Positions 6,325-63,916 of a stretch of DNA of 64,000 bases are shown in pieces. Positions within the stretch are counted from its first letter, which is position 1. Each line of letters opens with the position of its first letter. The notes under the pieces were generated by a model. That model did no database searches. It was not told where the DNA came from and saw only the letters and a list, made by a program, of their open reading frames with translations. The translations under genes and the position numbers were made by a program. This DNA comes from Vampirovibrionales bacterium (GTDB taxonomy: Bacteria > Cyanobacteriota > Vampirovibrionia > Vampirovibrionales > Vampirovibrionaceae): positions 599,135 through 663,134 of the forward strand of contig JAJCZA010000005.1 of assembly GCA_029262635.1 (NCBI GenBank), given 5' to 3'.

Positions 6325-6840
6325 ATGGACGTTTCACTTAAATCCCCCACCTTTTCAGGCTTGCAGTCGCTCAACCCAACAAGTAAAATGCCGCCCAGTC
6401 CGGCTATAACTACTGGGCCAGATGCGCTGTCCATTCGTTTTGGAAATACCCAATCGGCGGATGCCTCAGAAGGGAAAGAGAATTTCTTTAAGCGAACAGG
6501 ATCGAAGATTAAAAACTTTTTTACCATTGAGGACTTTAGCTTTAAAAAGTCGGCGAAAGGAGCAGGGCAAGGTGTCCTTAGTTACTTTACCTCCCCTAAA
6601 AAAGGGATATTCCTTGATTTAGGGATTAATGCCGGTATTGGCGTTGCATTGGCCGGTGTTTTATTAGCCACAGGTTTGGGTGCGGCGGCGATACCCAGCT
6701 TATTACCGATTTTGGGGGTGACCATGGCTATTTTTAGTACGGTTCAAATGACGTTTCGGGCCATTAAAGGGTTTTTTAAGCCCGAATTTTATGCTGCTCA
6801 ACAAGACGAACTTAAAAAGGATGAGACTTCGACAGCATGA
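6325..6840 (+). CDS. Small hairpin membrane protein with Phe-Gly leader (1 of 3)
   Basis: I do not recognise this 171-residue protein. Residues 1-50 are polar and rich in Ser, Pro and Thr, with the motif IRFG ending at residue 40. A basic, aromatic stretch follows (about 55-95), then two hydrophobic segments (about 98-118 and 122-142) separated by a short turn, and a charged tail. A cleavable signal peptide is absent. AAGGGA lies seven bases before the ATG. Its stop overlaps the start of the next gene (ATGA), and that protein has the same layout, so the two are probably paralogues acting together. The function is unknown; hairpin insertion in a membrane is inferred from hydrophobicity only. 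Confidence 0.75.
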   Translation: MDVSLKSPTFSGLQSLNPTSKMPPSPAITTGPDALSIRFGNTQSADASEGKENFFKRTGSKIKNFFTIEDFSFKKSAKGAGQGVLSYFTSPKKGIFLDLGINAGIGVALAGVLLATGLGAAAIPSLLPILGVTMAIFSTVQMTFRAIKGFFKPEFYAAQQDELKKDETSTA

Positions 6841-7304
6841 TGAATTCCGTCTCTTTTGCATCACAAGCAGGCCCCCAACCTCAGGGGGTTAACAAGCGTG
6901 TTTTATCTCCCTCTCTCTCTTTTGGAGAAGCTGTGGAAGACGTATCTCGTTTTGGTGCAAGTTCTTCTTTTTCTCTTGAAGAGCTTGAGGCCATTAGTCA
7001 ACGGGGTTGGAAAGATGCGTTTAAAGCCGGGCTTAAAACCATGAAGCCGTTTTTTACCGATTGGCGATTGACCGGGCAGGCCTCTCAGGTTATTTTTGCC
7101 GGGACCATTTTTGGTATTGTCTCCACAGCCCTTTCCCTTACGCCACCACTTGCGATCATAGCGATCCCAACCAGCATTGCTAGTTTGGCGGCCCTGTATC
7201 TGGCGTTTGACTTTATTCAGGGGTTTGGGCATGAGCGTGAGCTGCAGAATAAGGCTCGTGAAATCATAAATCCGTCTGAAAAAACAGAAAACAAAAAAAA
7301 CTAA
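6837..7304 (+). CDS. Small hairpin membrane protein with Phe-Gly leader (2 of 3)
   Basis: This 155-residue protein repeats the plan of the preceding gene: a Ser/Pro/Gln-rich leader with two Phe-Gly motifs (SFG ending at residue 30, RFG ending at residue 40), a basic amphipathic stretch (about 55-80), two hydrophobic segments (about 84-101 and 105-125) joined by a PP turn, and a polar tail ending in Lys/Asn. The hydrophobic block ends in FDFIQGFG, comparable to MTFRAIKGFF at the same place in the upstream protein, which supports common descent. Its ATG overlaps the upstream TGA, so translation is probably coupled. No enzymatic motif is visible. Confidence 0.75.
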   Translation: MMNSVSFASQAGPQPQGVNKRVLSPSLSFGEAVEDVSRFGASSSFSLEELEAISQRGWKDAFKAGLKTMKPFFTDWRLTGQASQVIFAGTIFGIVSTALSLTPPLAIIAIPTSIASLAALYLAFDFIQGFGHERELQNKAREIINPSEKTENKKN

Positions 7305-7403
7305 GCAACTTTTTTCTTTCAGGGTTTTATATTTAACCAGAAGCGGTTATCCCTTCACTGTACTCTCTCCCATAACAGTACAAATAACAAAGGACATCCA
7401 ATT

Positions 7404-8210
7404 ATGTCACCGACCCTTTCAACCCTCCCTCTCGTGTCAAATCCGAATATCAAACCGGCTTTTTCTGCCGCCCAAACCACGCCCTTAAGGTTTGGCTCGG
7501 AAACAAAAGAGGAACCGGATACGTTTGATAAAAAAGAAACCGAGTCGGCTGAATCTGAACCGAAGAAACCGTATTTTAGCCGTCTGGCTGATTTCCTTCT
7601 GTTTAAAGAGACGAGTTTTTTTTATAACCCAGCGACAGCAGTCGTGATTGGCCTTGCGGCAGGCATCCTTTTTGGGGGAGGTCCGCTCTCCATCCTCACG
7701 GTTCCGCTGGCGTTGGTAATTTGGCCGATGTTTGGTGGCGGCAGCGAAAAAACTGGCGAGGCTGAAAAAACTGGAGAAGTCGATGAGACTGAGGAGAGTG
7801 ATGGTGGAACAGACTCTACTGACAGCATTGATGCCGATACAGAGGAGAAAGATGCTGGCGCTATGATAGAGCTTGAAAAACTAGAAAAGGTTCATAACCC
7901 ATACACATTTGCCAAGCCTCTTGAAAAGTCTGAAAATCAGCAAAATTTGCAAGCAGCATTAGATGAAAATAACCCTGAAGGCTTGCCGCCAATGCTCAAG
8001 CAAGCGTACCTGATTCTTAAAGCCAATGAAGCCTTAAGTTTTGACGATACTTTAACCGTTAAGAGCCTTTCTGAAAAAGCAGAGAGGGATGTCACGTCAC
8101 CGTCACAAAGAGCTAAATCTGCTGAAAAATCAGAAATCAACATTTTGATTGGCGAGCTTAATGCTCTCATTGAAAATATAGATAAGAAAACGCAAGAAGC
8201 ATCAGAATAA
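7404..8210 (+). CDS. Hairpin membrane protein with Phe-Gly leader and acidic tail (3 of 3)
   Basis: The 268-residue product is a longer member of the same layout. A Ser/Thr/Pro-rich leader contains LRFG ending at residue 31, an acidic spacer follows, then two hydrophobic segments (about 77-92 and 94-110) with glycine-rich ends. The rest is a soluble tail beginning with a strongly acidic, imperfectly repeated Glu-Lys-Thr-Gly-Glu stretch (about 113-150) and continuing as predicted helix. AAGGA lies nine bases before the ATG. It is 99 bases downstream of the second hairpin gene and may have its own promoter. Its 3' end overlaps the convergent Nudix gene by nine bases. No known family was recognised. 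Confidence 0.75.
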   Translation: MSPTLSTLPLVSNPNIKPAFSAAQTTPLRFGSETKEEPDTFDKKETESAESEPKKPYFSRLADFLLFKETSFFYNPATAVVIGLAAGILFGGGPLSILTVPLALVIWPMFGGGSEKTGEAEKTGEVDETEESDGGTDSTDSIDADTEEKDAGAMIELEKLEKVHNPYTFAKPLEKSENQQNLQAALDENNPEGLPPMLKQAYLILKANEALSFDDTLTVKSLSEKAERDVTSPSQRAKSAEKSEINILIGELNALIENIDKKTQEASE

Positions 8211-8765
8211 AGAAAATTCTAGGCCCAATAGACACAGGGTTTTGGCATCGATAATGGTTCGATCCCGGACCCTGTGTTTAATTTCTTCCGGCGTGAGGTA
8301 AAAAAGCTGAATATTCTCTTCGTCATCGGTCGTGGTTACGTCGCTGGCTTCGTGAAGTCCGGTGGCTTTATAGAGCCAGAGCTTTTCGTTGCAAAATCCG
8401 GGTGAAGTATAAATATAAGTAAGTTCCTCCCAGTTCTTTGCCTGATAACCGGTTTCTTCAGCCAGCTCTCGTTGAATCGCAAACAACGGTGTTTCGTCGG
8501 GCTCCAGTTTACCGGCCGGTAGTTCTAGCAGAGGGTGCCCCAAAGCGTATCGCCATTGCCGGACAAATACGACCCGTCCGTCATTTAGGATGGGCAAAGC
8601 AACCACGCCGCCAGGGTGTTTGATAAAGTCTCGTGGCCGAACCTTTCCGTCCGGTAGTTCGGCCTCATCCTGATGGACTGTGACCACCCGACCTTCGTAA
8701 ACCACTTGGGAGCGAACCGTTTTTTCGGTCAGTGCTAAATCGGAATCAGAATCAAAAGGGTTCAC
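8202..8765 (-). CDS. Nudix hydrolase, ADP-ribose pyrophosphatase type
   Basis: A complete Nudix box is visible as GKLEPDETPLFAIQRELAEE followed by TGY, giving the G-x5-E-x7-R-E-x2-E-E-x-G pattern that binds the catalytic metal. The surrounding N-terminal segment (VYEGRVVTVHQDEAELPDGK) and the post-box YTSPGFCNEKLWLY match ADP-ribose/sugar-nucleotide pyrophosphatases, which recycle ADP-ribose in the cytoplasm. I chose the GTG at 8763-8765, giving the usual NPFD-type N-terminus, because GGAG lies about ten bases upstream; a GTG at 8804 would add 13 residues. It overlaps the end of the M20 peptidase gene by 14 bases, suggesting one operon with it. Confidence 0.88.
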   Translation of the reverse strand: MNPFDSDSDLALTEKTVRSQVVYEGRVVTVHQDEAELPDGKVRPRDFIKHPGGVVALPILNDGRVVFVRQWRYALGHPLLELPAGKLEPDETPLFAIQRELAEETGYQAKNWEELTYIYTSPGFCNEKLWLYKATGLHEASDVTTTDDEENIQLFYLTPEEIKHRVRDRTIIDAKTLCLLGLEFSLF

Positions 8766-9885
8766 GGGCAAAACACTCCAATAAACTGGATACAAACTGA
8801 CCACACCGGTTCATCTCGCTGACCAATACGCGTTCCCGTAAGCTGTGTGGTTCCATAAAGCTGGCGCCCATGACAATGCCTTTCAGCCCCCGACGCATAA
8901 ATACGTTGTTATCACTGCCGCCATTGGTTTTGGTGAGCCTGGGTTCAATCTGGACCCGTTCCGCGGATTCCATGACCCGTCGCACACCGAGGCTGGCAGG
9001 ATCAATATCATAACGATGAAACTCATAATGGTGATTAAAATTGTAATCTACGCCGGGCATGTTGGCTTTTTCATCGTCCAGAATGCGTTGAATGGAAGCC
9101 AGTTGTTGATTGAGCATTTCTTCGCTATGACTGCGAAGCTCGCCGCGAATGGTCGCTAAATCCGGTACGACGTTGGTTCCTTTGCCGCCGGTGATAAAGC
9201 CGATGTTGGCTGTAGTTTCTTCGTTGATTCGTCCCAAATTCATTCGGTCAATGACTTTTGAGGCAAAGACAATAGCGTTGACCCCTTTTTCTGGCATAAT
9301 CCCGGCATGAACGCTCTTGCCCCGGCACTCAATGTTAAATTCCACATAACTGGGCGCCCGTTGAATAATCGTTCCTTGTCGTCCGGTGTGATCAAACGTC
9401 ACCGCAAAGTCCGCATCCAGTGTTTTGTCCGTTAGATCCTTCGCGCCGCCTAAAAATGTTTCTTCCCGGGTAGTAAAAATCAGGCGGGTTTTCGGGCGAG
9501 GCAAATTGTGCTGAATCGACAGACGAATAGCCTCTAAAATAGGGGCTAATGCCGCTTTGTCATCGGCACCTAAGACGGTGGTGTTATCGCTGACAACCAG
9601 TCGTTCGTCACCCTCACCCGAAACCGAGGGCTTAATGCCATGGCACGGTGGAACCACGTCCATGTGGCCGGAAAAGACCAGGGTTGACCCATGGGTGCAC
9701 TGATTGGCCGGTATTTCCACAATTAAATTACCACCCGAATCTATCGTGGAAGAAAGCCCTAAGTTGTTTACCTGCGATTGGAGCCAAGCACACATGGCTT
9801 CTTCTCCCCCGCTAGGGCTATCGATTTTGACCATGGTTAGAAAGGTATTTAAAATCGTTTCCGAATCTGGACTGATAACCCCCAT
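8752..9885 (-). CDS. M20 family metallopeptidase (PepT-like)
   Basis: The 377-residue protein has the M20 di-zinc ligand set in order: FSGHMDVVPP (His), LGADDKAALAP (bridging Asp), FTTREETFLGGA (catalytic Glu followed by ligand Glu), VTFDHTGRQG (Asp) and EPHSLRERV (His). The lid/dimerisation domain with KSVHAGIMPEKGVNA lies between them. This arrangement is closest to tripeptidase T-like enzymes, which release N-terminal residues from short peptides in the cytoplasm. The ATG at 9883-9885 has a clear AGGAGA seven bases upstream and starts after the upstream exonuclease gene; an earlier start at 9939 would intrude into that gene. Substrate specificity cannot be read from the sequence. Confidence 0.9.
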   Translation of the reverse strand: MGVISPDSETILNTFLTMVKIDSPSGGEEAMCAWLQSQVNNLGLSSTIDSGGNLIVEIPANQCTHGSTLVFSGHMDVVPPCHGIKPSVSGEGDERLVVSDNTTVLGADDKAALAPILEAIRLSIQHNLPRPKTRLIFTTREETFLGGAKDLTDKTLDADFAVTFDHTGRQGTIIQRAPSYVEFNIECRGKSVHAGIMPEKGVNAIVFASKVIDRMNLGRINEETTANIGFITGGKGTNVVPDLATIRGELRSHSEEMLNQQLASIQRILDDEKANMPGVDYNFNHHYEFHRYDIDPASLGVRRVMESAERVQIEPRLTKTNGGSDNNVFMRRGLKGIVMGASFMEPHSLRERVLVSEMNRCGQFVSSLLECFAREPF

Positions 9886-9902
9886 GCTCTCTCCTGTTTT
9901 CT

Positions 9903-10442
9903 TTATTTTACAGACGGTAACGGATCCAAATAATCCCATAATAGTTTATCAAATCGAGCGTCGTCCAAAGCATTATGTGCGCCTTCTCCCTGCTGAGGCA
10001 AATAGGGTTTGCATTCGCCTTTGATACACTTGCCTTTCTCCGAGGCAAGCTGATAAAGCTCGTGGTACCACGTTTGTACATGAGCGGGCAGCGTGGCAAA
10101 CCCGTCAAAGACATGGTTCATAAAGAGGAACCAATCCTGCGACCCATTTTTAGCCCAGAAAACCGCCATGTCTGATTCTGCCAAAATAAAGGCTTCAACC
10201 CCTTTGCGAATGTCAGCCAATGAACGCCGATTCTCCTTAGAGCCAAGCAAGGGAACCACGTGTTCTAACACCCAGGGGTTTAACAGGGTTTCGTTGAACT
10301 CATTGCTTTCGGCATAAAACTCTCGCCCGGTCTCATCCACAATGCCAATGCTAATCAACTCATACCGGCCCTTGGGCATGGCGTTGAACTCCATATCCAA
10401 AAAATATTTCCGGCCGGCCGGCCGTTTTCCGGTTGTGCTCAT
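9903..10442 (-). CDS. DEDDh 3'-5' exoribonuclease, RNase AS-like
   Basis: The protein starts with YFLDMEFNAMPKGRYELISIG, in which the Asp and Glu of DMEF are the first metal ligands of DnaQ-fold exonucleases, and ends with AHNALDDARFDKLLW, supplying the catalytic His and final Asp of the DEDDh type. The spacing and the REFYAESNEFN segment resemble mycobacterial RNase AS (Rv2179c), which removes 3' adenylate tails from RNA; that match is from memory of the family. The length of 179 residues fits. It is first in a three-gene run with the M20 peptidase (17-base gap) and Nudix hydrolase. A role in RNA turnover is likely, but the exact RNA target is unknown. Confidence 0.8.
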   Translation of the reverse strand: MSTTGKRPAGRKYFLDMEFNAMPKGRYELISIGIVDETGREFYAESNEFNETLLNPWVLEHVVPLLGSKENRRSLADIRKGVEAFILAESDMAVFWAKNGSQDWFLFMNHVFDGFATLPAHVQTWYHELYQLASEKGKCIKGECKPYLPQQGEGAHNALDDARFDKLLWDYLDPLPSVK

Positions 10443-10450
10443 GGGAGTCC

Positions 10451-11107
10451 TTAAACTTGTGATGCGTAAGTTAATTCTCGCTTAATGTTACCCACTATTC
10501 TATCAGCATTTGGAACCAACTTTAAAACAAAAGCACGAACCTCAGGATAAGGCGAATCATAAAAACGGGTTAAAATCCCCATGCGTTCGTTATCATCTAA
10601 CTTTTGGACAAGCGTCGTTCCGGCTTCCTGTGTCTCCTCATTCTCATCATTTACTTGTACATACCCATCGTTTAGCTGTTTTCGGATCTTCTGGAAATGT
10701 TCGGAATAAGGGCTCTTTTTTGCTGCGTTGAGTTCTGCCCTTAAGGCTTTTAAAGCATCATTATGAGTCGGTTTTATGACCATTTCAGCAATTCGTCGAG
10801 CCGCTCCGGGCTTCATCTGGATCCCTTGAGTGGAGGAGTTAAGCTGGAAAGCAAATCCGTTGGGCGATTCTGATGGCTTTTGGGCTGGCCGATGGTTGGC
10901 GATTATTTGAAGACCCAATAAAAATATCAAAAAGTACGCCCCTCTCCGGATTGTCTTTAAAATTTTGGGGGGACGGTTTTGAGCCTCCAGGAGGCGCTGT
11001 GTTTCAAGTTGAGTAGGCATCTTGGGGGTGTTTTTTGTACCAAACATAGGCTGAACTTGAGGAAGCTGAGTCCTTGGGGTGAAGGGGGACAATGGTGATG
11101 TCTGCAT
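10451..11107 (-). CDS. Hypothetical single-pass membrane protein with Phe-Gly leader
   Basis: This 218-residue protein is not recognised. It begins with a Pro/Gln/Thr-rich leader holding PMFG (ending near residue 23), then a basic stretch and one transmembrane segment at about 57-72. The rest is a polar, helix-rich domain with many Ala, Glu, Lys and Asn. The region after residue 165 (MGILTRFYDSPYPEVRAFVL) resembles a HEAT-like repeat helix pair, but only one can be seen. A strong CGGAGG lies nine bases before the ATG. The gene is immediately upstream of the exonuclease on the same strand (eight-base gap). The leader is the same kind as in the 6.3-8.2 kb hairpin proteins. Confidence 0.65.
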   Translation of the reverse strand: MQTSPLSPFTPRTQLPQVQPMFGTKNTPKMPTQLETQRLLEAQNRPPKILKTIRRGAYFLIFLLGLQIIANHRPAQKPSESPNGFAFQLNSSTQGIQMKPGAARRIAEMVIKPTHNDALKALRAELNAAKKSPYSEHFQKIRKQLNDGYVQVNDENEETQEAGTTLVQKLDDNERMGILTRFYDSPYPEVRAFVLKLVPNADRIVGNIKRELTYASQV

Positions 11108-11304
11108 CGAATAAGCCTCCGAAAGTTAGTGATTAATAAGGTAACACAATCAAACCCGGAGGCGTCCTCTAATTGCTTTCTGTTTTCGTCCCTATTTTAT
11201 TCCTGGCAAAACGAAAGAGAGTAGGCTCATTGTATCTCTGTCTCTGTCTGTGATAGCCTGGCTTTATATGAACGGCACTCAACGCTTTATTATTGGGTAA
11301 TTAG

Positions 11305-12258
<954 letters not shown>

Positions 12259-12265
12259 ATTCTAT

Positions 12266-12301
12266 GTCCCTAGGTTCTCGAAAAGTCGAGGACCTAGGGA
12301 C
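12266..12301 (+). terminator. Long hairpin after mdh, probable terminator
   Basis: The arms GTCCCTAGGTTCTCG (12266-12280) and CGAGGACCTAGGGAC (12287-12301) pair over 15 positions with one G-U, around a six-base loop. A moderately T-rich stretch follows (12302-12315), not a clean U-tract. The position eight bases after the mdh stop supports a transcription-stop role. Confidence 0.6.
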
Positions 12302-12330
12302 TATTCCATTTCTTTAAGGAGAACTATAGT

Positions 12331-12749
12331 TTGTATGAAATAAATTTCAGAGAAAAGTTACTGGATTCTTTTGGTGGAAGCGATTTTATGGGTTTTACAT
12401 TGATATTAGAGTTAGCGATGTCGATCCACAAATTAAACCAACTGAAGAATATAAATTTGCAAAAATAGAATTAACCGGCTCTTTAACCGGCCCTCTCAGA
12501 CTTGATAAAAGTGCTCAAAATAAAATTGCCTATAAGTGGCTTCGGGATTACCTTTGGAATAATGGGAATAGTGAGAGAATCGAAAAACTACTTGAGTACG
12601 AAAGACAAGGCGAAAGTGCCACTCAAGGTTGGGATTTGAAATTAGAAATAAAGAGCAACGATAGAAAAACAGTAGAGCAATACGACCTTGATGCGATTAT
12701 GCTGGATGAACCCATTAAGGTTGAAAGAACCAACAAAATAGGATTTTGA
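12331..12749 (+). pseudogene. Frameshifted orphan gene between mdh and ilvC
   Basis: A coding-like stretch without an intact frame. AAGGAG at 12316-12321 precedes a TTG at 12331 that opens a frame reading YEINFREKLLDSFGGSDF. That frame soon hits TAG, while the frame displaced by -1 runs open from about 12350 to TGA at 12747-12749, reading YIDIRVSDVDPQIKPTEE and onward. Joining them near GGTTTTAC (about 12391-12398) would give roughly 138 residues of acidic, beta-rich protein with no signal peptide. The total length is one base short of a multiple of three. Base composition is clearly more AT-rich than the neighbours, suggesting acquired DNA. No family was recognised. It could be a decayed gene, a sequencing error, or a genuine -1 frameshift site. 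Confidence 0.5.
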
Positions 12750-12759
12750 CTGCTTTTTT

Positions 12760-13809: not shown

Positions 13810-13905
13810 GGGAATGGCTCCAATACGACTTCAGACTTTATCTTCATGCGGTGGTTATGGTAGTTTGGCATAAAAATGAACCCGAATAAAAAGGATCCGT
13901 TTCTC

Positions 13906-15426: not shown

Positions 15427-15720
15427 GTTTTTCATCCTTTGTGTTAACTTGCCGTAAATAACTTTTATGGCTGAGCTAGGGTTTATTAAATAAAAAAATT
15501 CCCAAAAAAAAGCCTCTTGCTGCACCAGGCGCACGCATAAGGCACAAAGGATAGAGAGTTAGAGTTTCAATTATTCTACATAGTTAATAGGAATCCGTCT
15601 CGATCTTTTTGCGATTGTGACATAATTTTTTACAAACTAACGATCCGAAACCCGGATCGGATCACTGTTTTAGCGTATTAAAACCGTGCCAGGTAAGGGA
15701 TCAGGCGGGTTTTTGTGTTT

Positions 15721-16104
15721 TTAGGCGGCTTGCTTCAAGGCAGACAGTAGTTGGTCTGCCGACACTTCCTTTAAGTGATCGTTACCGTGGCGTATCCGCT
15801 CTAGCGATCGGGAAACGTCGTCAGACAGATCGTACCAGCGATTATGTGGCGGCAAGACCCACTGATCCTTGGCGACTTCTCCCCAATGAAGATCCATGAA
15901 TAAGGCAAACTCTTCCAGTACCATTTGTCGAACTTGCTGTGGCGCTAAACGCAGTAGTTTGAAGGCGAAGGCCAATCGAGGGTACGGATCATACCATCGG
16001 CAGGGACGATAACTCATGGTTTGCCTCGTTTTACTCTCTACTCTTTGTACTTTAGGTACGGTTGGCTCTTTTAAAACTCTAGTCTCTTTATGCTTTGCGC
16101 CCAT
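15721..16104 (-). CDS. Hypothetical protein, soluble
   Basis: A 127-residue protein of unknown function. Residues 1-30 are basic and Thr/Val-rich. From residue 31 (MSYRPCRWYDPYPRLAFAFKLL) it looks like a compact helical domain rich in aromatic residues, without membrane segments or a signal peptide; an internal start at that Met is possible. AAGGGGG lies about 12 bases before the first ATG. The gene is isolated, 75 bases from the next gene on the same strand. On the complementary strand downstream, a short GCCT/AGGC hairpin followed by eight T (about 15508-15532) might act as a weak terminator. Nothing ties it to a pathway. Confidence 0.55.
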   Translation of the reverse strand: MGAKHKETRVLKEPTVPKVQRVESKTRQTMSYRPCRWYDPYPRLAFAFKLLRLAPQQVRQMVLEEFALFMDLHWGEVAKDQWVLPPHNRWYDLSDDVSRSLERIRHGNDHLKEVSADQLLSALKQAA

Positions 16105-18577: not shown

Positions 18578-19954
18578 GTGGCTATTGGCAGTATCAATAT
18601 TAATCGCTTTCAGGGGGCTACCCAGCGGTATTTGCAAAATACCCAGCAACAGAATATGAACCTATATTCTGTTAGTGGTAACAGTTTGACTGCCAACACC
18701 ACGGGACGAAATAGTCTGAATGCTAATTCATCTTTTACCATCCCTCAAACCGATTTTAGTGCTTCTTATGCGGTTAATCAGCAGCCGACGGAGGCCAACT
18801 TATTCCAGCGAGGCAATTATCTTAATATTCGGGCTGATCAGCGCTTCCTACGGAACTCGGCCCCCGTCGAAGCTCGGAACATCAATGAAGCTAATAACTT
18901 TCAGCGCCCTTTAAATCTAAACTTTACGGGGGATAGTAAATTTCGCCCTGGGTTTGATAATAAGGTCCCACTGCAAGCGCCTCTCACACCAACGCGAGCT
19001 GATTTCCAGGACCGCATTAAACATTATGAACTCTCTGATGCTCATTTCAATACCTTAAAAAACGGGCCGGATTTTCTCATTCCCAGAAATGGACCTCTTG
19101 GGTTTAAGGTGCTTACCGATGGTGCGGGAAATATTACCGGTATTGAAACCGATACAGCCCGATTTGCGAACCAGTTTGACGGAACTCGAAACAATGAAGG
19201 GCTTCTGGCTAACCGTTATGAGATCACCCAAGGTGCTCAGTTTACTGCCAACCCTATTGCCGCCCGAAATATTGCCATTCAGCCACCGGGCGCCCCCAAT
19301 CCGAAAGGCCCCATTAACGCACAAGATCTGCTTTTACAAGAACTGACCAACAATCAGAATTTCAATGCTTTGAAACTTAATCCAGACCTTTTTAATGTGA
19401 ATCTGGGACCAGCTCAAAATATTAACCCTTTTCTCCGCGGTCCTTTATCCAACCCATTTGCTGAACGACTGGCTCAGCTCCAACCACAAGAACAAGGCAT
19501 CGCCGTCTTTGGCAGTGAATCGGAGATTGGGGTGGAAACCGCTCTCCAGATGGCCGCCTCAAAAGCAAAATTAAACCTGAATCTTGGCGAAGACTTTGCT
19601 AAAAACCTTCACGGCCTGCAGAATGCGGCTCTTCAACAAGGGTTGGTTTACTCCCCTGCTAAACATGCCGCTGAAATGAGTGGGATGATCCCGATGGTTG
19701 CTACGCTCCCGGCTCCGACCAAGAACGCGGGTGAAGTGGGTCTGATTAGTTTATCGCAAGACCTTGGAACCAGTTTTATGGCCGATACACTGGAAAAAAA
19801 GGGCGGTGGAGGAACTTACATGTCGTTTCGCAATGAAGGGCAAGGGGCAGGTGGTCAGGGCGAGCCGTCAGGACAAAACCAGCAGGGCTTTGGTGGGAAT
19901 TCACAAAAACAGCAACAGCAACATCAGCAACGTCGTTTTTCTTACAATGCCTAA
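18578..19954 (+). CDS. Asn/Gln-rich low-complexity protein, lineage-specific
   Basis: This 458-residue protein matches no family I know. It is exceptionally rich in Asn, Gln and Ala. The N-terminus reads SININRFQGATQ and leads into Asn/Ser repeats. Several short units of the type NPF, NLN and FN recur (for example NPFLRGPLSNPFAERL), and the last 45 residues are Gly/Gln-rich with a run of Gln and His ending in RRFSYNA. There is no signal peptide or membrane segment. The start is GTG with GGAG seven bases upstream. The stop overlaps the convergent RDD gene by four bases. Composition suggests an intrinsically disordered or assembly-forming protein; RFQG near residue 10 recalls the Phe-Gly leaders of other genes here. 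Confidence 0.7.
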   Translation: MAIGSININRFQGATQRYLQNTQQQNMNLYSVSGNSLTANTTGRNSLNANSSFTIPQTDFSASYAVNQQPTEANLFQRGNYLNIRADQRFLRNSAPVEARNINEANNFQRPLNLNFTGDSKFRPGFDNKVPLQAPLTPTRADFQDRIKHYELSDAHFNTLKNGPDFLIPRNGPLGFKVLTDGAGNITGIETDTARFANQFDGTRNNEGLLANRYEITQGAQFTANPIAARNIAIQPPGAPNPKGPINAQDLLLQELTNNQNFNALKLNPDLFNVNLGPAQNINPFLRGPLSNPFAERLAQLQPQEQGIAVFGSESEIGVETALQMAASKAKLNLNLGEDFAKNLHGLQNAALQQGLVYSPAKHAAEMSGMIPMVATLPAPTKNAGEVGLISLSQDLGTSFMADTLEKKGGGGTYMSFRNEGQGAGGQGEPSGQNQQGFGGNSQKQQQQHQQRRFSYNA

Positions 19955-20607: not shown

Positions 20608-21387
20608 TTACCGTACCTGAACCATCTTATGAGTTTGAGGAATGACCCGAACCTCTTTAAACCAGCGGGCGAGCTGATCTTGAACTCGTAAAATGTGGGC
20701 AGGTTCCAAATGTATGCGGTGATCGGCCAGAGAGGTAACCGGTTGCAGAATAATGGGCAGGGTTTGATCCAAGATGGTCTCTCGTACCTGTGCCAGTTCC
20801 TCATCGGTGGTGTTTTTCCCAAACACGAGTTTAATAAAGACCTCGACTTCGGGCCGAGTGGCGGCCATGGCCAAAAAGGCCTGATGTTCGTTAAACAAGG
20901 CTCGTTCTCCGGTGGTGGAGGGGAGTTTGATATCCATGGCAATCACATCCGTCCAGGGCAAAACTTCAGACAAAAACGCCGCCTGTGTTCCACTGGTTTC
21001 TAAATAGGTTTGAATGTCGGGATGGTTTTTTTTGAATTCTTCAAGCAATGTTTTTAAAAATCGGTGATACAACAGAGGTTCTCCACCGGTGAAACTGACG
21101 CTGTGGTGCCGACCCTGAGCAAGTAGGTTGTCGATTGCCTGTAAAAGTGTTTCGGTAGAAACTGGGTTGTCGTAAGCCTGAGTTTGGGGTGAACCGGGTG
21201 AAAGCTCAGCATAAAAGCGACCGTCTTCAGTGGTCATCGCCGTATCACAGTAAGCGCATTTTAAATGGCAGTGAGCAAATCGAACAAACACCTGCCGATG
21301 CCCAACGTAAACCCCCTCCCCCTGAACGGAAGAAAAGACCTCCTGTATGGGGGCGGCATTCTGGGTTTTTGGTAGGGTTATTTCCAT
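20608..21387 (-). CDS. queE: QueE-like radical SAM protein (7-carboxy-7-deazaguanine synthase)
   Basis: QueE rearranges carboxy-tetrahydropterin to 7-carboxy-7-deazaguanine in queuosine synthesis. The 259-residue protein starts with IQEVFSSVQGEGVYVGHRQVFVRF, typical of QueE, followed by the iron-sulfur motif CHLKCAYCDT (C-x3-C-x2-C) near residue 40-47. The glycine-rich SFTGGEPLLY block near residue 100 binds S-adenosylmethionine, and AMDIKLPST is the conserved mid-barrel strand. The queD, queC and queF genes are not in the window. The start overlaps the preceding small gene by ten bases. Related radical SAM activases share some of these features, but the VQGEG motif strongly favours QueE. Confidence 0.88.
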   Translation of the reverse strand: MEITLPKTQNAAPIQEVFSSVQGEGVYVGHRQVFVRFAHCHLKCAYCDTAMTTEDGRFYAELSPGSPQTQAYDNPVSTETLLQAIDNLLAQGRHHSVSFTGGEPLLYHRFLKTLLEEFKKNHPDIQTYLETSGTQAAFLSEVLPWTDVIAMDIKLPSTTGERALFNEHQAFLAMAATRPEVEVFIKLVFGKNTTDEELAQVRETILDQTLPIILQPVTSLADHRIHLEPAHILRVQDQLARWFKEVRVIPQTHKMVQVR

Positions 21388-21824
21388 GATTCCAGAAGGG
21401 AGGTTTTACCTGTTGCGTCCTTCCAAGCCTTACCCCATTCTTGGCCATGCAATACGATATAAAGCGCACCGCCAAAGAAAAAGCCTAAAATTAATCCTTC
21501 TACCGTTTTTGAAGCGAGTTTTCCTATTTTGTCTGCAACTGTCTTTGTTTCTTGCTTTGCCCCTCTCAGAACGAGGTCTAACCCTTGTATCAACAAAAGA
21601 TAAGCCCCTCCCAGCAATGCGCCATACCCCGAGCTGTTACCGTAGTTATTACGGTGTTGAGTCAGTTGATGTACAGCTTGTGTTTGCTTAGTGTATGCAT
21701 GCCGTCGTTCTTCTAGGGAGTCATACCTGGAGCCTCCTTGGGGATTAGGCGTATAGCGTCCCCGATGAACAAGTGGCGGTTCGGTAGAAAGGGAGATGGG
21801 CAATTGGGAATGGGCTATGTTCAT
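21378..21824 (-). CDS. Hypothetical small membrane protein
   Basis: The 148-residue product is unrecognised. Residues 1-75 are polar, rich in Pro, Tyr, Arg and Gln (for example YTPNPQGGSRYD). Two hydrophobic segments follow, near 80-97 (GYGALLGGAYLLLIQGL) and 118-135 (LILGFFFGGALYIVLHG), and the C-terminus is charged. I chose ATG 21822-21824 because GAGG lies eight bases upstream; an ATG twelve codons earlier lacks such a site. The 3' end overlaps queE by ten bases. The layout (disordered leader, membrane hairpin) resembles the small genes at 6.3-8.2 kb, but no Phe-Gly motif is present. Confidence 0.6.
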   Translation of the reverse strand: MNIAHSQLPISLSTEPPLVHRGRYTPNPQGGSRYDSLEERRHAYTKQTQAVHQLTQHRNNYGNSSGYGALLGGAYLLLIQGLDLVLRGAKQETKTVADKIGKLASKTVEGLILGFFFGGALYIVLHGQEWGKAWKDATGKTSLLESWK

Positions 21825-22015
21825 TTTAGGAACCTCAAGACTAGAAGGAATTAAAGCCATGAATTAAACGGGTAATTGTCAATTTTATCAAATCACCGGG
21901 CTATAAAAAAGTGCGAATTACTTAAAATCAAAAGGAAAGGTCAGGAATATCAAATTAATGACACACCTAACCTGAGAACAACACTCTGCAACAGGGCAGT
22001 TAGAAAGAAAGCTAG

Positions 22016-52562: not shown

Positions 52563-52586
52563 TTTTGAATACCTGTTTTTGCTTTC

Positions 52587-55268: not shown

Positions 55269-55294
55269 AAAATGATAACCTTTTTATTGACCCT

Positions 55295-56512: not shown

Positions 56513-56551
56513 TGATTTTAGTTCCTGTTAACTGTTTTTCGAATGATTCGA

Positions 56552-58117
56552 CTATGGTTTTTCAAAATATTTTCCAAAATCTGACTTGTCCAACACATGA
56601 GGGGTCACCAGAATGACCAGCTCCGTATTTAATTTTCGGTAAGCTCCGTTTTTAAAGAATTTACCCAAAATCGGTAAATCGCCAATGAACGGGACGGACT
56701 CAAATGTGTTGTTTTCTTCTCGGGTCAAAATGCCGCCCAGCATGAGGGTTTCTCCATCATGCAACTGAACGGTTGAGTCCGCTGTCCGCTTCAACAATCC
56801 GCAGACCTGAGCCCCCCCGGCACCTGGCACACAGTTGGCAGTATCAATACTGCTAACTTCCGGTGCGATTCGGAGTTCAATTAAACCGGTCCGAATGTTG
56901 ACCCAAGGGGTAAATTCAAGTCCTACACCGAACTCCCGGAACGAGATAATGGGGCTCCCGTTTTGGTCTGTTCCAGAGGTGAAGGGGAACTCCCCCCCGG
57001 AGAGGAAGGAAGCCGTTCGTCCATGGGTGGCAACGAGTTTGGGTTCCGCTAGAATGGAAACTTTTCCATTGGTTTGCAGAAAGTCAAAGGCCGCATCCAA
57101 AGAGTTGCCAAATCCCATGACACCTGTTAGTCCACCGACGTTATTCGCTTGTTGTAAAAATCGAACTGATCGATCTACATTTAAAGCGGCACCTGCCAGA
57201 GCCGTTCCGATATTGGTTCCAGGTGAAAGAGTTGAGCTTGCGCCTAGGGCCAATGCAGTCACATAGGTGGGGTCCAGAGCGGATTGAAGACGGGTTACGG
57301 TAAAGTCTTGTCCCTGGGTGGCAAAGGATGTTCTTAAGTCTCGAGCGGTGCTTTTATTCATTTGAACAATTTTGACTTCAAGTACGACCTGAGGGATCGG
57401 TGTTTCGGTCAAGTCCACGAAGTTTTCAGCCCGATACCCATAAGCACCAGCTGTTCGGCGGATTTCATCCAGAATTACGGAACTGGAGACTTGACCTGAA
57501 ATTAAAAACGAATCATCCGTAATGCGAACATCAATGTTTTCTCTTGGGGCGATGGCGTTAATCGTTGCCATGAGTTCGGTGGTGTCATTTTGGACATGGA
57601 GATCGAAAATGCCTTCTTGTCCGTTTTCATCCCAGACGATTAAACTGGTAACGCCCCTTTGGCGACCGTTGATCATTAATTGATCCGGTGACAGTGGGAT
57701 AATATCCGCTAATTGTGGATTGGCAATGGATAAGCGCATAATGGGCTGAGCAAATTTGACGATTTGAGAGCGCCCTCGGGTCACGGTAAGTGAAGTGACA
57801 TTTCCTCGAAGAATAGGAGTCTCTTCACTTTTGTTTTCCGCTTGGCCACTGGGGGTATGATCCTCTTCTAACTCTTGTAACGCAAACCCTGAGCTTGGTA
57901 ATGATGAGGGTGTGCTGTTGGCGATGGTATTGATGTCTTTTGGCGCATTTTTTGAGAGTTCTTTTATGATGCCGTTACCGTAAGGCTGGATCAAATGGTT
58001 TTGTCTCTCAAGGGCGTGTAATGGAGAAAATCCGCCTGTGACCCAAAGTGTTCCAACAACCAATGTTGTTGCTATCCATGGTTTCAATGGATTTAGATTA
58101 ATAAACCCCGTTCTCAT
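56552..58117 (-). CDS. cpaC: Tad pilus outer-membrane secretin RcpA/CpaC
   Basis: The 521-residue secretin forms the outer-membrane channel for the Flp pilus. A signal peptide (PWIATTLVVGTLWVTGGF, likely cleaved near LHA) precedes a periplasmic region with the T2SS/BON-like repeats (QIVKFAQPIMRLSIANPQLA, then VRITDDSFLISGQVSSSVIL). The secretin core shows VSILAEPKLVATHGRTASFL, the FPFTSG turn, VGLEFTPWVNI and DGETLMLGGILTREE. Such a channel requires an outer membrane, supporting a diderm cell. It is 55 bases downstream of cpaB. Confidence 0.94.
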   Translation of the reverse strand: MRTGFINLNPLKPWIATTLVVGTLWVTGGFSPLHALERQNHLIQPYGNGIIKELSKNAPKDINTIANSTPSSLPSSGFALQELEEDHTPSGQAENKSEETPILRGNVTSLTVTRGRSQIVKFAQPIMRLSIANPQLADIIPLSPDQLMINGRQRGVTSLIVWDENGQEGIFDLHVQNDTTELMATINAIAPRENIDVRITDDSFLISGQVSSSVILDEIRRTAGAYGYRAENFVDLTETPIPQVVLEVKIVQMNKSTARDLRTSFATQGQDFTVTRLQSALDPTYVTALALGASSTLSPGTNIGTALAGAALNVDRSVRFLQQANNVGGLTGVMGFGNSLDAAFDFLQTNGKVSILAEPKLVATHGRTASFLSGGEFPFTSGTDQNGSPIISFREFGVGLEFTPWVNIRTGLIELRIAPEVSSIDTANCVPGAGGAQVCGLLKRTADSTVQLHDGETLMLGGILTREENNTFESVPFIGDLPILGKFFKNGAYRKLNTELVILVTPHVLDKSDFGKYFEKP

Positions 58118-58172
58118 CGTGTTTCTTCCTCTTTTGTCTCTCTAGCCGGTGTTAGCCAATATCATATGGAGA

Positions 58173-59216
58173 TTAGTACTGCCATTGAAAATTTTTGGAT
58201 TCGCTGTTGGCCCCTTTATAGATTTCCATTTGAAAAGTTTGATTTTCGGGTTCGGGTACTGCGGGTTCTGGTAAGGCTTCTGGATTTTCTGAATAATTGA
58301 CTGGAATATCATTGGGTAGATTGGGAACATTGTGTTCAGAAAAACCGACCTGCTTTAGATCAGCCGGGCTCAGACCATTGATGAGTTGCCCTATGTCAGA
58401 ACCATAGAGGGTGGTTTCCTTTTTATCGCCAAAACCACGGAGAGCCAAGTGGAATTCGGCGACCTTATTAGCCAAAGCAAGTGTTTCAGCTTGAGCTGGA
58501 GTGACCTCCAGAGTGACGGCTCCTTTTGAACTCTTTTGAGCTGTACTTGCGGGAGGTTTTCCTCCACTGGGCGATGAGGAGGGGGCCTCACCCGAGCTAA
58601 TAACACGAACATTTTGAAGCAGTGTTTTAGCCATTTCCGATTTGGGGAATGTGGCCATAACATCAACAAACATTCCTGATGCGATGGCACCATCCACCGA
58701 GGCGATGTCGTTTACTTTGATGCTGACGGCTCGCATGCCCTTTGTTACTGGAACCATGCCTTTGGTATCGAGTAGTTTTGTTCGGGTTATGATCTCGCCG
58801 GGCAATAAATCCATGGACGAAATTTTTCCAACCACATTGGATACTCTGGAAAAGCTTTCCATAGAAGGCCGGTGACCGGGTTGCAATTCGACTTCTTTTA
58901 ACATGCTTTCTTCAAGCCGGGTTCCTAAAGGGACTTTTACGGCTAGTTGAACCTCGGTGTATTTTTTAGTTCCTGAAGAATGGCCAGAACCCTGTTTTTG
59001 CAGTTGTTCCACTTGTTTCTCGAGTAGAGCCATCTTCTTTTCTTTTTTCTTTAGTTCTTCTTGATGCTGTTGTTGAGCTATTTCGTTATTGGCCGTGATG
59101 CCTGTAAACAAAAGAAAGAGCAAGGCGAGGCCGATTCCGCCGACGACAAGAGCAATGACGGTTGCCACAGCGAATTGTACAAATGCTTTTTTAGGTTTTT
59201 TGGGACTGGCCATCAT
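58173..59216 (-). CDS. cpaB: Flp pilus assembly protein CpaB/RcpC
   Basis: The first gene of the operon encodes a 347-residue membrane-anchored periplasmic protein. The anchor is at about 12-35 (VATVIALVVGGIGLALLFLL), followed by a coiled coil rich in Gln/Lys/Glu, the SAF domain (about 85-170; VKVPLGTRLEESMLKEVEL and LLPGEIITRTKLL), and a RcpC-type domain (MRAVSIKVNDIASVDGAIAS). The C-terminus is Pro/Asn-rich. CpaB partners the CpaC secretin. The region upstream to asnS (59217-59440) holds no gene, only a small TCCTCT/AGAGGA hairpin at 59377-59392. Confidence 0.9.
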   Translation of the reverse strand: MMASPKKPKKAFVQFAVATVIALVVGGIGLALLFLLFTGITANNEIAQQQHQEELKKKEKKMALLEKQVEQLQKQGSGHSSGTKKYTEVQLAVKVPLGTRLEESMLKEVELQPGHRPSMESFSRVSNVVGKISSMDLLPGEIITRTKLLDTKGMVPVTKGMRAVSIKVNDIASVDGAIASGMFVDVMATFPKSEMAKTLLQNVRVISSGEAPSSSPSGGKPPASTAQKSSKGAVTLEVTPAQAETLALANKVAEFHLALRGFGDKKETTLYGSDIGQLINGLSPADLKQVGFSEHNVPNLPNDIPVNYSENPEALPEPAVPEPENQTFQMEIYKGANSESKNFQWQY

Positions 59217-59440
59217 CGACTACCTTAATGCTTCCAACGGGCTGTTTTTATGACGAGATTTTGTTTTTCATTTCTTGTTTTTTGAAGAAAAACTCTAATC
59301 CCATTCAAGCATACCAATGGATCGACCTATCCTGAACCTCTAAATCAATGAAATCAACCCAATACTTTAGTTAAGCTCCTCTAAAAAGAGGACGTTTTAG
59401 GCTGGTTGGTCTTAATTTATTTTAAAAGGGCAGGAATGAA

Positions 59441-60763
59441 TTAAGGCGTTAGCCGTTCCATGAGGCGTGGAAATGGAATGGTTTCCCTGACATGATGAAT
59501 CCCACAAATCCAGGCCACGGTTCGCTCAACACCCAGTCCAAATCCGGAATGAGGGAAACTACCGTAGCGGCGTAAATCCAGATACCAGCCAAAGGCGGTT
59601 TCGGGTAGCTCGTGTTCTTTTATCTTTTTCAGTAGCACGTTCAAATCATCCTCCCGCTGGCCACCGCCAATAATTTCGCCGTAGCCTTCCGGTGCGATCA
59701 TGTCGACATTCAGTGATAATTCAGGGTTCTCTGGGTCTGGCTTCATGTAAAATGCCTTAATGGCCGATGGATACCGATGAATGAGCACGGGTCGATCAAA
59801 ATGATTAGAGATAATGGTTTCGTCTTCTGCTCCAAAGTCATCGCCGTACTCAAACGCGTGGCCTTCCTGTTTTAAAATTTTAGTGGCTTCGTCGTAAGTA
59901 ATTCGAGGAAAAGGTTTTTGTACGGCTTCCAATTTTGAAACGTCTCGTTCTAGTAGGGTCAGTTCAGCGCGTCGGTTTTCTAGTACGGCCCGGACAATAA
60001 AAGCAACAAAATCCTCGGCTAGATCCATATCCCCTGCCAGATCCAGAAAAGCCACTTCCGGTTCCACCATCCAAAATTCAGTCAGGTGGCGTCGGGTTTT
60101 GGATTTCTCTGCCCGAAACGTGGGGCCAAAACAATAAGCCTTGCCAAAGGCCGCTGCTGCCGCTTCCATGTACAGTTGGCCGCTTTGGGTTAAATAAGCT
60201 TTGTCATCAAAGTAGTCGGTTTCAAACAGGTTGGTCGTACCTTCACAGGCGTTGGGTGTAAAAATGGGTGCGTCCACCAAGGTAAATCCCCGTTCGTCAA
60301 AAAATGTTCGAATGGCACGAATGATTTCCGCACGGATTCGAGTGATGGCATGTTGACGAGATGAACGCAACCATAAATGACGGTGGTCCATTAAAAAGGC
60401 CACGCCATGTTCTTTGGGGGTAATGGGATAATCCACAGATTCATGTAAAATTTCAAAATCGGTTACCCCAATTTCAAACCCTAGGGTGGATCGCTTATCC
60501 TCTTTGACGGTACCTCGTACCCGAACCGAGGATTCTTGGGTTACCCGGTTTCCTGCTTCAAACATCTCAGGCGGCACATCGCCTTTAAATAGGACACACT
60601 GAATCGTCCCGGTACCATCGCGAAGTTGTAAAAAATGGAGTTTGCCGCTTGAGCGTTTATTGTAAAGCCATCCATGGAGCGTAACGTCTTGACCTAAATA
60701 GGCTGTGCCATTTTGAGCTAAATCCTCAATGTATACGTTTGGCGTGGTGGTGGTCATGGTCAT
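59441..60763 (-). CDS. asnS: Asparaginyl-tRNA synthetase
   Basis: Charges tRNA-Asn directly. The 440-residue protein has the OB-fold anticodon domain ([20 protein letters not shown]), then the class II core with motif 2 ([20 protein letters not shown]) and motif 3 ([15 protein letters not shown]). [17 protein letters not shown] and WMVEPEVAF are AsnRS-specific compared with AspRS. GGGAG lies about twelve bases before the ATG; a second ATG two codons later is also possible. It appears monocistronic, 105 bases from the CBS gene. Confidence 0.96.
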
Positions 60764-60866
60764 GCGGGCATACTCCCTCTCAAAAGATTCTAACGAGTTT
60801 TGATTCTTTTATTATCCCACCAAAATTAGTGAGAAAAAAGGAGAGGAATCTAGCGGTTTAGCTTTC

Positions 60867-61271
60867 CTATGGTTTGGGTTGTTTTGCAATTAGATCGATA
60901 ATATCCAGCGTGCTGACAATCCCTACCGGCTTGTTGTCTTTTGGTTTCACAATAACAATCCGGTGCATTCGGTGCTGACTCATAATCTTGGCTAGTTGAA
61001 TAACAGGTGTCTCCAGATGGCCGACTTCCTGAATCGGACTCATGTAATCAGAAACATAGCCACCACTGGCCTCTGATGAGAAGGATGCGTTTTGCTCATA
61101 GATGAGTAAGTCCATGATACTAATGACCCCCACGAGTTGACCGGCACTACCGATCACGGGTGCGCCCGTAATTTTTTTTGAGAGCAGAAGTTCTCGGACT
61201 TCTTCACAACGCATTAAGTGATCCACACAAATAGGGTTTTGGGTCATGACTTGGTTTGCGACCGGTTCCAC
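60867..61271 (-). CDS. CBS-domain pair protein
   Basis: The 134-residue protein consists of two tandem CBS domains: about 5-60 with VMTQNPICVDHLMRCEEVRE, TGAPVIGSAGQLVGVISIMD, and about 72-128 with YMSPIQEVGHLETPVIQLAK and RIVIVKPKDNKPVGIVSTLD. CBS pairs bind adenine nucleotides and act as sensors, often free-standing. The start is a GTG with AAGGA eight bases upstream. No neighbour suggests the regulated target. Confidence 0.85.
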   Translation of the reverse strand: MEPVANQVMTQNPICVDHLMRCEEVRELLLSKKITGAPVIGSAGQLVGVISIMDLLIYEQNASFSSEASGGYVSDYMSPIQEVGHLETPVIQLAKIMSQHRMHRIVIVKPKDNKPVGIVSTLDIIDLIAKQPKP

Positions 61272-61347
61272 AGAGCTGTCCTTTTCGCTAATTCTATAGG
61301 CTGTTTTACGGTATTTTTTATTATGGCACGTAAAGCGTTAAAAAAGA

Positions 61348-61387
61348 GAAAAGCCCCATTGATTTCATTTAATTGATGGGGCTTTTC
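61348..61387 (-). terminator. Intrinsic terminator for the aldehyde dehydrogenase gene
   Basis: GAAAAGCCCCAT (61348-61359) and ATGGGGCTTTTC (61376-61387) form a perfect 12-base-pair stem. Read on the minus strand the stem is followed by CTCTTTTTTAAC, a good U-tract, and it starts 28 bases after the aldehyde dehydrogenase stop. Confidence 0.88.
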
Positions 61388-61415
61388 GTGTTTATCTTTT
61401 GGAAAGAGAAACCGG

Positions 61416-62939
61416 TTAGTCGTCGATTTGAGCTTTCTGAAGGGAGTCGCTGTAGTCGACAAAACAGGATTTCCACTCACAGAAGGTATCCAGTGCCGTT
61501 TGACCGGCATCCCGGTGACCATTCCCTGTGTTTTTCATCCCGCCAAACGGCAGGTGCACTTCGGCGCCAATGGTTGGGGCATTGACATAGGTCAGGCCGG
61601 ACTCCAGATCACGCAAAGCCGTAAACGCCTGATTCACATCCTTGGTGTAGATCGCTGTTGACAAGCCAAAGTCAATCGCATTGGCGACCTGAATGGCTTC
61701 TTTTAACCCATCGACAGGGATTAATGCCGTGACTGGGCCAAAAATCTCTTCTTGTGCAATGCGCATGGTGGATTTTACATTGTCAAATAGGGTAGGCTGA
61801 ACAAACCAGCCGGAGCCAGCTGTTGTTTCCCGGCTTCCACCGGCCAACATGTCAGCGCCTTCGGCTTTACCAATTTCAATGTACTCCAGAATTTTATTCA
61901 TGGCAGCTTCGTTAACAACAGGGCCAATATTAACGCCGTCATTCAGGCCATAGCCCAATTTCAAGGTTTTCATTTTGGTGAGAATTAATTCTCGAACCTT
62001 GGCATGGACCTTTCGATCCACAATCACTCGGCTGGTAGCGGTGCATCGTTGGCCAGATGTACCAAAGGCGCCCCAAACAACGCCCTCAACAGCCAGTTCT
62101 AGATTAGCGTCATCCATGATGATGCAGGCGTTTTTACCGCCCATCTCCAGCGTAACATGGCGAAAATCAGGTGCACAGGTTTCGTTAACGATACGGCCCA
62201 CTTCACACGAACCGGTAAAGGAAATCAGTTTGACGTTCTCACTTTTCATGAGTGGCATGCCGGCTTCTGAGCCCGAGCCACAAACCAGATTAATAACACC
62301 GGGCGGTACACCGGCTTCTTCAAAAATCTGAACCAGTAAAATCGATGATAACGGCGTATCGCTGGCGGGCTTTAGCACCATGGTGTTGCCGCAAATTAGT
62401 GCCGGGGCGATTTTCCAGCTTGGAATGGCCATCGGGAAATTCCAAGGGGTAATCAGTCCCACCACGCCCAAGGGCTGACGAACGGTCATGCAGAACTTAT
62501 TAACCAGTTCTGAGGGAGTGGTTTCACCAAACAGTCGACGTCCTTCGCCAGCCGCGTAAAACACCATATCAATGGCTTCCTGAACATCTCCTCGGGTTTC
62601 GGCAACCACTTTACCCATTTCACGGGTCATGGCTCGTGCTAATTCTTCTTTACGTTCAATTAGCAGGTTGCCTGCTTTAAACATAATTTCGCCTCGTTTG
62701 GGTGCTGGCACGAGTCGCCATTGTTCAAACGCTTTTTTGGCCGCTAAAATGGCTTCCTGAATATCCGCTTCGCCGGAGGCGGGAAACGTGCCAACCATAT
62801 CAGAAGGATCTGCCGGGTTGACGTTTTTAAAGGTCTTGCCGGATTTGGCTGGAACCCATTTTCCGCCAATATAGTTCAAATAGTCCTGAGAACCGGTCAC
62901 GGCACAGGATAAGTTTTGGGGTGCTGTCTGGGTCGTCAT
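61416..62939 (-). CDS. NAD(P)-dependent aldehyde dehydrogenase
   Basis: The 507-residue protein belongs to the ALDH superfamily: [20 protein letters not shown], the catalytic Glu in VTLEMGGKN, the catalytic Cys in [24 protein letters not shown] and the C-terminal [17 protein letters not shown]. The pattern is near the alpha-ketoglutaric semialdehyde and piperideine/pyrroline carboxylate groups, but the substrate cannot be fixed. GAGAGG lies six bases before the ATG. It is a single-gene unit with a strong terminator (61348-61387). Confidence 0.93.
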
Positions 62940-63046
62940 AACAACCTCTCCTTTTACTTAAATAAAAGCGCTGATAACAAAGTGTCTTGCGATTATATCG
63001 GAAAAGCCTCTTTTTCGCTACAACCTTACTTTCCTCTTTGGGTGCT

Positions 63047-63916
63047 TTAGCCGAGTTTTAAACCACATTGGCGTTCTAAAAAGTCTCGAAGAGAATTTAT
63101 GTTGAGCACCCTTCCCCGTTTGCAGTCTCCGTTTAGATTGCCTTCGATTAAAATGCCGATTAAATCACCTTCTTTATTATAAACAGGACTTCCGGAGTCT
63201 CCGTTTTTAATTTTTCCACTCATATATTCTAGATTGAAGTCCGAACCGATATCGGCTTGTTCTAAGAGGGTTGTTATCTCAACCTTATCTATAAACCCTT
63301 GTTGTCTTGAAGAGCAAACAATCGCTGGTTCGCCTTGACGAAGGTTGAGTCCCAGGAAACTGGACGGTGCTAATTGAGGGGGATGAGACACGAGTCGGCC
63401 ATGGCCTTGGGTGGGCTCTAGTAACATGAGGTCATTGTAATACATGATATCCGGGTAGAGTTCGTCAAGCCAGTCCTTTTTATCGTATTGCTGAACAATT
63501 TTGGCTAGGCCGGAAACATTCTGTTGTTTTTTGGGGTCTCTTGAGCCAAAAAAGAACTCGGCCATTCCGTGTAACTCCATCGTGTTGGCCTCAAACAAAT
63601 GGCGGCAGGTTAAAATGTAGTAGGTTCCTGTTTTTATGTCGCGAATCCACACACCTGAACCATTAAAGGAATAGTTATTACTACGGAGGCTTACGGTATT
63701 TGGCCGGAGAGACTCGGCAACGTCATCTAATGGTTTAATCGGTTTAAACCATGAACGCCACCACCCTACAACCCTTGTAGGCGTTTCGGGTAATTCCAGT
63801 TGCCCTGGCGGTGAACAGTTCCCTTTGAAACTTAAAGAAAAAGTTGAAAGGCTGTGTTGAAATGGCTGATTCATCGAAGGGGATGGGAAGGGTCTCGAAA
63901 CAGCTTGTAATTTCAT
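63047..63916 (-). CDS. Trypsin-like serine protease with Phe-Gly leader
   Basis: The 289-residue protein shows a complete chymotrypsin-fold triad: LTCRHLFEA (His), MYYNDLMLLEPT (Asp) and KNGDSGSPVYNKEG (Ser with oxyanion-hole GDSG). The final third ends with DLIGILIEGN. The first 45 residues are a Ser/Pro/Phe-rich leader with FSLSFKGNC, the same leader style as several hypothetical genes in this window; it does not look like a Sec signal peptide, as there is no continuous hydrophobic stretch. The protein might be exported by another route or act in the cytoplasm. No typical ribosome-binding site is visible before the ATG. The substrate is unknown. Confidence 0.8.
   Translation of the reverse strand: MKLQAVSRPFPSPSMNQPFQHSLSTFSLSFKGNCSPPGQLELPETPTRVVGWWRSWFKPIKPLDDVAESLRPNTVSLRSNNYSFNGSGVWIRDIKTGTYYILTCRHLFEANTMELHGMAEFFFGSRDPKKQQNVSGLAKIVQQYDKKDWLDELYPDIMYYNDLMLLEPTQGHGRLVSHPPQLAPSSFLGLNLRQGEPAIVCSSRQQGFIDKVEITTLLEQADIGSDFNLEYMSGKIKNGDSGSPVYNKEGDLIGILIEGNLNGDCKRGRVLNINSLRDFLERQCGLKLG

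Follow-up and report, generated by a model that had tools for sequence, protein, structure and literature searches.

Six proteins encoded in the window, the 64,000-nucleotide stretch analysed here (G000:C5:599135-663134 of the 2.99-Mb genome G000), carry a short Phe-Gly motif in their N-terminal leaders, which raises the question of whether this motif is a signal and, if so, of what kind. An earlier note on this DNA had read it as a shared sorting, tethering or processing signal, and all the motifs that it named in the six leaders are present in the translations, from which the following features were delimited:

6325 to 6444, plus strand: leader of a 171-aa hairpin protein, amino acids 1-40
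6445 to 6840, plus strand: body of the 171-aa protein, with the hydrophobic hairpin
6837 to 6956, plus strand: leader of a 155-aa protein
7404 to 7496, plus strand: leader of a 268-aa protein, ending in LRFG
11039 to 11107, minus strand: leader of a 218-aa single-pass protein (10451-11107), ending in PMFG
18578 to 18616, plus strand: short leader of a 458-aa low-complexity protein, ending in NRFQG
63821 to 63916, minus strand: leader of a trypsin-like protease (63047-63916), ending in LSFKG

Two motifs are found in the leader of the 6325 gene, FSG at residue 10 (6352-6360) and RFG with its Phe at residue 39 (FG at 6439-6444), and two in that of the 6837 gene, SFG (Phe at residue 29, FG at 6921-6926) and RFG (Phe at residue 39, FG at 6951-6956). 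The motif is RFG in the 7404 gene (Phe at residue 30, FG at 7491-7496), MFG in the 10451 gene (Phe at residue 22, FG at 11039-11044, minus strand), whose start codon is less certain since the gene caller favoured an internal start, RFQG in the 18578 gene, which has a GTG start (Phe at residue 11, FQG at 18608-18616), and SFKG in the 63047 protease (Phe at residue 30, FKG at 63821-63829, minus strand). Residues 2-25 of all six leaders contain 0-1 acidic residues and 12-15 Ser, Thr, Asn, Gln or Pro. The protease (Trypsin_2, E 1e-7) is the sole carrier of the six with a known family, and the body of the 171-aa protein matched no Pfam, NCBIfam or PHROG family. Another membrane-hairpin protein with a polar leader, this one without F.?G, is encoded at 21378-21860 on the minus strand, between genes of different function.

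The search for homologues of the window proteins returned no close homologue of the 6325 protein among 57 relatives. A weak homologue of its hairpin (L003, family f2, E 0.008) has a leader that ends in ARFSG and is itself unalignable, and a homologue of the window protease (L218, genome G005, E 1e-5) begins MLQAVRFQGAVLPGVRFGED, its leader containing both RFQG and RFG. The motif is thus kept in weak homologues of two window proteins, which is few cases, where its loss would have spoken against a signal. The window protease was also considered as a general processor of the leaders and was rejected, as it has few relatives.

We then compared the frequency of the motif with that in shuffled controls. 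Genes were called on 663 kb of the organism's own genome (G000, family f1), 600 kb of G001 from the same family and 600 kb of G035 from the distant family f6, on small samples of G011 (f3, 200 kb), G032 (f8, 100 kb) and G038 (f4, 100 kb), and on 200 kb of G242, an out-of-class control from the same phylum. The test set consisted of non-hydrophobic N-termini of proteins without a homologue in the other sampled genomes (orphans). [RKQSHNT]F.?G occurred in 30 of 155 orphan N-termini of G000 (11.1+-3.1 in the shuffled set, z 6.1) and in 20 of 127 of G001 (8.0+-2.7, z 4.5), and F.?G in 37 of 161 of G035 (25.6+-4.2, z 2.7); the flanking class was partly picked from the G000 examples, which leaves G001 and G035 as the independent tests. 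The motif is therefore above shuffles in the orphan N-termini of three genomes and two families. The C-termini of these three genomes gave no excess, nor did G.?F, the motif reversed, in their N-termini; the same holds for conserved proteins and for the N-termini of G242 and of the small G011 and G038 samples. The orphan C-termini of G242 showed an excess of [RKQSHNT]F.?G (16 of 79 against 6.1), for which we have no explanation.

Scans of all gapped residue pairs, which do not presuppose the motif, placed FxG first in G035 (29 against 12.2 expected) and FG first in G001 (23 against 11.0). When restricted to low-acid polar N-termini, the all-pair scan ranked F.?G first in G000 (26 of 62 against 12.5) and in G035 (11 of 24 against 3.9), and only 15th in G001. 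That Phe and Gly are frequent enough in disordered leaders to yield the six window cases by chance is highly improbable given the z values of the three genomes, the top rank in unbiased scans and the retention of the motif in homologues, even though composition alone predicts about half of the raw F.?G matches, many of which must individually be chance. The raw count over all proteins shows only a weak excess, and raw matches in structured N-termini are mostly chance or domain motifs such as the GFIG of NAD-binding enzymes. The F-x(0,1)-G leader motif is real, and three or more families of the organism's class have it.

The position of the motif was most informative in the zinc enzymes that resemble S1/P1 nuclease and phospholipase C. 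The G000 enzyme, whose match to Pfam PF02265 lies below the family cut-off, has the N-terminus MGYGNTLRFG, followed directly by WAGHGHAAIN. A search of the class and inspection of the N-termini yielded 22 readable members, with an uncertain start codon in a few from f1 and f2 and weak matches (E 1e-5 to 5e-4) for 11 from f6. In 21 of the 22 (f1, f2 and f6), FG (18 members) or FK (three) stands directly before residue 1, which is W in 14, L in three, F in two and Y in two, and a zinc-ligand His follows at position 6. Examples, with the leader written before the hyphen, are MNTLTSTGPASQFG-WFQSTHHAI, MFSTPPLIPTASQPVIRFG-WWKKDHEII, MKINSIDNKTNFG-WSFKTHAAI and MKISANTRYNPAKTKNSFG-YNYETHRVI. The single exception, from f3, reads RQG-WRGKEGH, without Phe and with its His at position 7.

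A profile of ten members (A1) matched phospholipase C (1ah7), P1 nuclease (1ak0), an S1/P1 nuclease (8qjl) and plant endonucleases (4cxo/3w52) in the PDB. The zinc-ligand residues and the first residue of the S1/P1 nuclease/phospholipase C fold are present: in A1 numbering, H6, H151, D155, P159, H161 and H177 are invariant and H49 is nearly so. These enzymes thus share with the known PF02265-fold proteins an aromatic residue or Leu at position 1 and the ligands His6, His49, His151, Asp155, His161 and His177, but differ from them in being made with FG leaders rather than Sec signals and in their low identity to the solved members.

In S1 nuclease, signal cleavage leaves Trp as the first mature residue and the main chain of the N-terminus coordinates zinc (PMC5201275). 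Since zinc is bound by the backbone N-terminus of residue 1, the chain must be cut before that residue. Eight members from the same phylum but outside the class have hydrophobic signal peptides with AxA directly before the same Trp (e.g., PAQA-WWDTGH, PAYA-WWDTGH, RAHA-WWETGH and PVYA-WDFAGH), so that FG lies exactly at the signal-peptidase position. The members from the organism's own class have no hydrophobic signal, and their leaders cannot be aligned. The leaders are 9-25 aa long in the 19 members with a chosen clear start, are 12% identical in pairwise comparisons and contain 3% acidic residues compared with 10% in the body. With such divergence in sequence and length, inheritance of a common sequence does not by itself account for the zero spacing of FG, and these leaders would be cut between Gly and residue 1.

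Could the motif instead be an uncleaved docking or tethering element, with FxG binding a partner and remaining on the protein? A short linear motif in disordered segments, present in two copies in the 6325 and 6837 leaders, would suit such a role. Its placement with zero spacing before a zinc-binding main-chain N-terminus in 21 of 22 enzymes across families makes this quite unlikely, and so does a second family, the metallophosphatases of f6, in which FxG falls where the paralogues without a leader begin.

Six of these metallophosphatases bear leaders (e.g., MQVTKTKQNQTFTG-ITKIYA and MKIYQNSNMAFEG-TTKIYA), and all six have FxG (FTG, FEG, FGG, FGG, FNG and FNG) followed by [IT]T[KQ]IYA. Six paralogues without a motif leader begin at the boundary or a few residues off it, as M(K)TNIYA, with an ATG at the boundary in four and none there in L213 and L214. 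Identity is 18% among the leaders and 73% over the first 30 residues of the body, and the share of acidic residues is 2% before the motif and 11% after it; FxG is therefore a sharp border between leader and body in this family. Ser, Thr, Asn, Gln and Pro make up 54-61% of the leaders of the zinc enzymes and the metallophosphatases.

From the enrichment, the position of the motif, the leader/body boundary and the conservation in homologues, all directly observed, we infer that F-x(0,1)-G is probably the C-terminal end of a short leader removed by a protease, the bond directly after Gly being the most probable site of cleavage. The leader would be an N-terminal segment of about 8-45 aa, poor in acidic residues and rich in Ser, Thr, Asn, Gln and Pro, fused to bodies as unrelated as zinc nuclease/phospholipase-like enzymes, metallophosphatases, proteases and small membrane hairpins; in one enzyme family or more it would stand in for a Sec signal peptide, and it may direct exit from the cytoplasm. 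Some observations fit this reading poorly. The alternation of FG and FxG spacing, together with the three FK members, is odd for a single protease; the f3 enzyme with RQG lacks the Phe, and the 200-kb sample of G011, also from f3, shows no enrichment.

The claim of a shared, lineage-specific N-terminal signal for sorting or processing, rather than a domain, is supported by the enrichment, the homologues and the zero spacing of FG. Among the roles that it had offered, processing is favoured over tethering, and a code that targets proteins to a known place is not supported. The F-[KQ]-G form that the earlier note mentioned for relatives is one form of the motif, FG, FxG and sometimes FK also occurring. 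The papers that could be searched contained no account of this motif for the lineage, and the placement of FG in the zinc enzymes speaks for a class of cleavable leaders not described so far.

Comparison with known leaders showed both likenesses and differences. Sec signal peptides, the substrates of signal peptidase I, are also N-terminal and also free the Trp of S1/P1 enzymes, FG taking the position of AxA, but the FG leaders are polar and acid-poor, with no hydrophobic core and no AxA. This composition is seen in two enzyme families, AxA being confined to the out-of-class homologues; the enriched orphan set was itself pre-selected for non-hydrophobic N-termini. Type IV prepilin (class III) leaders share a hydrophilic, basic character and a terminal Gly, but no hydrophobic helix with F1 and E5 comes after the FG leaders, whose bodies start with WxxxxH, ITKIYA and the like. 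The recognisable pilins of these genomes are mostly without Phe at -2. Prepilin peptidase was rejected as the protease, as Phe precedes Gly in only a minority of the G035 pilin sites. Double-glycine leaders, processed by C39 peptidase-ABC exporters, are likewise non-hydrophobic with Gly at P1, but the FG leaders have no GG, and a C39 peptidase as the general protease was rejected, the domain not being found in G000 and being rare in f6 (two matches in f6 within a sample of 97 genomes).

Several carriers are of types that are normally cytoplasmic, namely PhzF-like, HD_4, sigma-70-like (in G001) and FtsH-like proteins, the last two labels resting on sequence features rather than on a family scan. 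Such cytosolic-looking carriers do not fit simple secretion: they may be effectors, their leader may serve as an activation propeptide, or part of the set may match by chance. The sigma-70-like protein (G001:C1:522363-523325) has the leader MTTTTTNTPGTTFG, which recalls pro-sigma factors. Pro-sequences that are removed from sigma factors have precedents elsewhere. The leader of the FtsH-like AAA protease (G000:C5:387539-389851) ends in RFAG, and the C-terminus of this protein resembles that of the RFQG-leadered protein at G000:C5:106881. An HD_4 protein is one of three consecutive FG-leadered genes at G000:C5:201527-204936, beside an S1/P1-like enzyme and a 529-aa membrane protein; the stretch 6325-8210 of the window is a second such run.

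These carriers bear on another possibility, that the leader is a propeptide which holds proteins inactive in the cytoplasm until it is cut after Gly, as in a zymogen, without export. The leaders on the sigma-70-like and FtsH-like proteins are in its favour, as is the expectation that the zinc site of S1/P1-like enzymes should be incomplete until cleavage (PMC5201275). We consider it unlikely, as a Sec signal takes the place of the leader in the S1/P1 members of the same phylum, which argues for export, and membrane hairpins and orphan proteins have no obvious need for activation. Neither of the two other enzyme groups considered provided a second test of the N-terminus: the class has no LPMOs, and choloylglycine hydrolases are confined to f4 and f9, the readable ones of f4 having ordinary signal peptides.

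If the cleavable leader does direct export, a route is needed. For Vampirovibrio, a type IV system has been suggested (PMC4451040); VirB4-type secretion was rejected here, VirB4 being found in none of 27 genomes. FHIPEP (the FlhA/SctV export gate) was found in 26 of the 27. Two full-length copies are present in f1, f2 and G011 (f3), and most f6 genomes have only the second kind, with lower flagellar-model scores; a copy separate from the flagellar-type one was found in f1, f2 and f6 as sampled and also in G011. In G035 (C1:443158-449136), the second FlhA belongs to a run of genes that also comprises FliE (Pfam E 6e-18), FliF (4e-32), an unnamed gene and FliH (4e-23), and in G001 (C1:544250-550663) the same FlhA and FliF flank a FliH-like gene and an unnamed ORF. 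These FlhA/FliF-type genes outside the flagellar-type copy, in two families, possibly encode a non-flagellar type III-like apparatus. The tested f6 genomes have a further partial FHIPEP match, to the C-terminal half and in an ORF of about 500 aa (e.g., G035:C3:317649-318671).

The leader could accordingly be an export signal for this FlhA/FliF/FliE/FliH apparatus, cleaved later at FxG, with the hairpin proteins as translocators or host-membrane effectors; this would be a specific form of the cleavable leader and is compatible with it. Like type III signals, the leaders are disordered, rich in Ser, Thr and Asn and low in acid (2-3% compared with 10% in the body). The second gate occurs in f1, f2 and f6 as sampled, is clustered with FliE, FliF and FliH in G035 and with FliF in G001, and is absent from G038 (f4), which has no FG excess in a sample of only 100 kb. 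The co-occurrence spans few families, G011 has the second gate without an FG excess detected in 200 kb, and the FG substrates have no link to the FlhA gene cluster. Classical type III secretion signals, moreover, are neither motif-bearing nor cleaved. We therefore hold a type III-like signal to be possible but doubtful, and the second FlhA-type gate to be the best, if tentative, candidate for the export route. More speculatively, and rather against the odds, the class may have a pathway of its own, with a cleavable non-hydrophobic leader, a dedicated FxG-specific peptidase and probably type III-like delivery, which would serve a few per cent of the proteome, membrane-hairpin effectors included.

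If the end of a cleavable leader is indeed what F-x(0,1)-G marks, this bacterial class would have a leader that belongs to none of the Sec, Tat, prepilin or double-glycine types, and standard predictors would label a set of processed proteins as cytosolic or hypothetical. The search for the protease would become direct, and the motif would provide a sequence-only rule for recognising which proteins are secreted or activated, among them possible effectors in relatives that are predatory or live in the gut.
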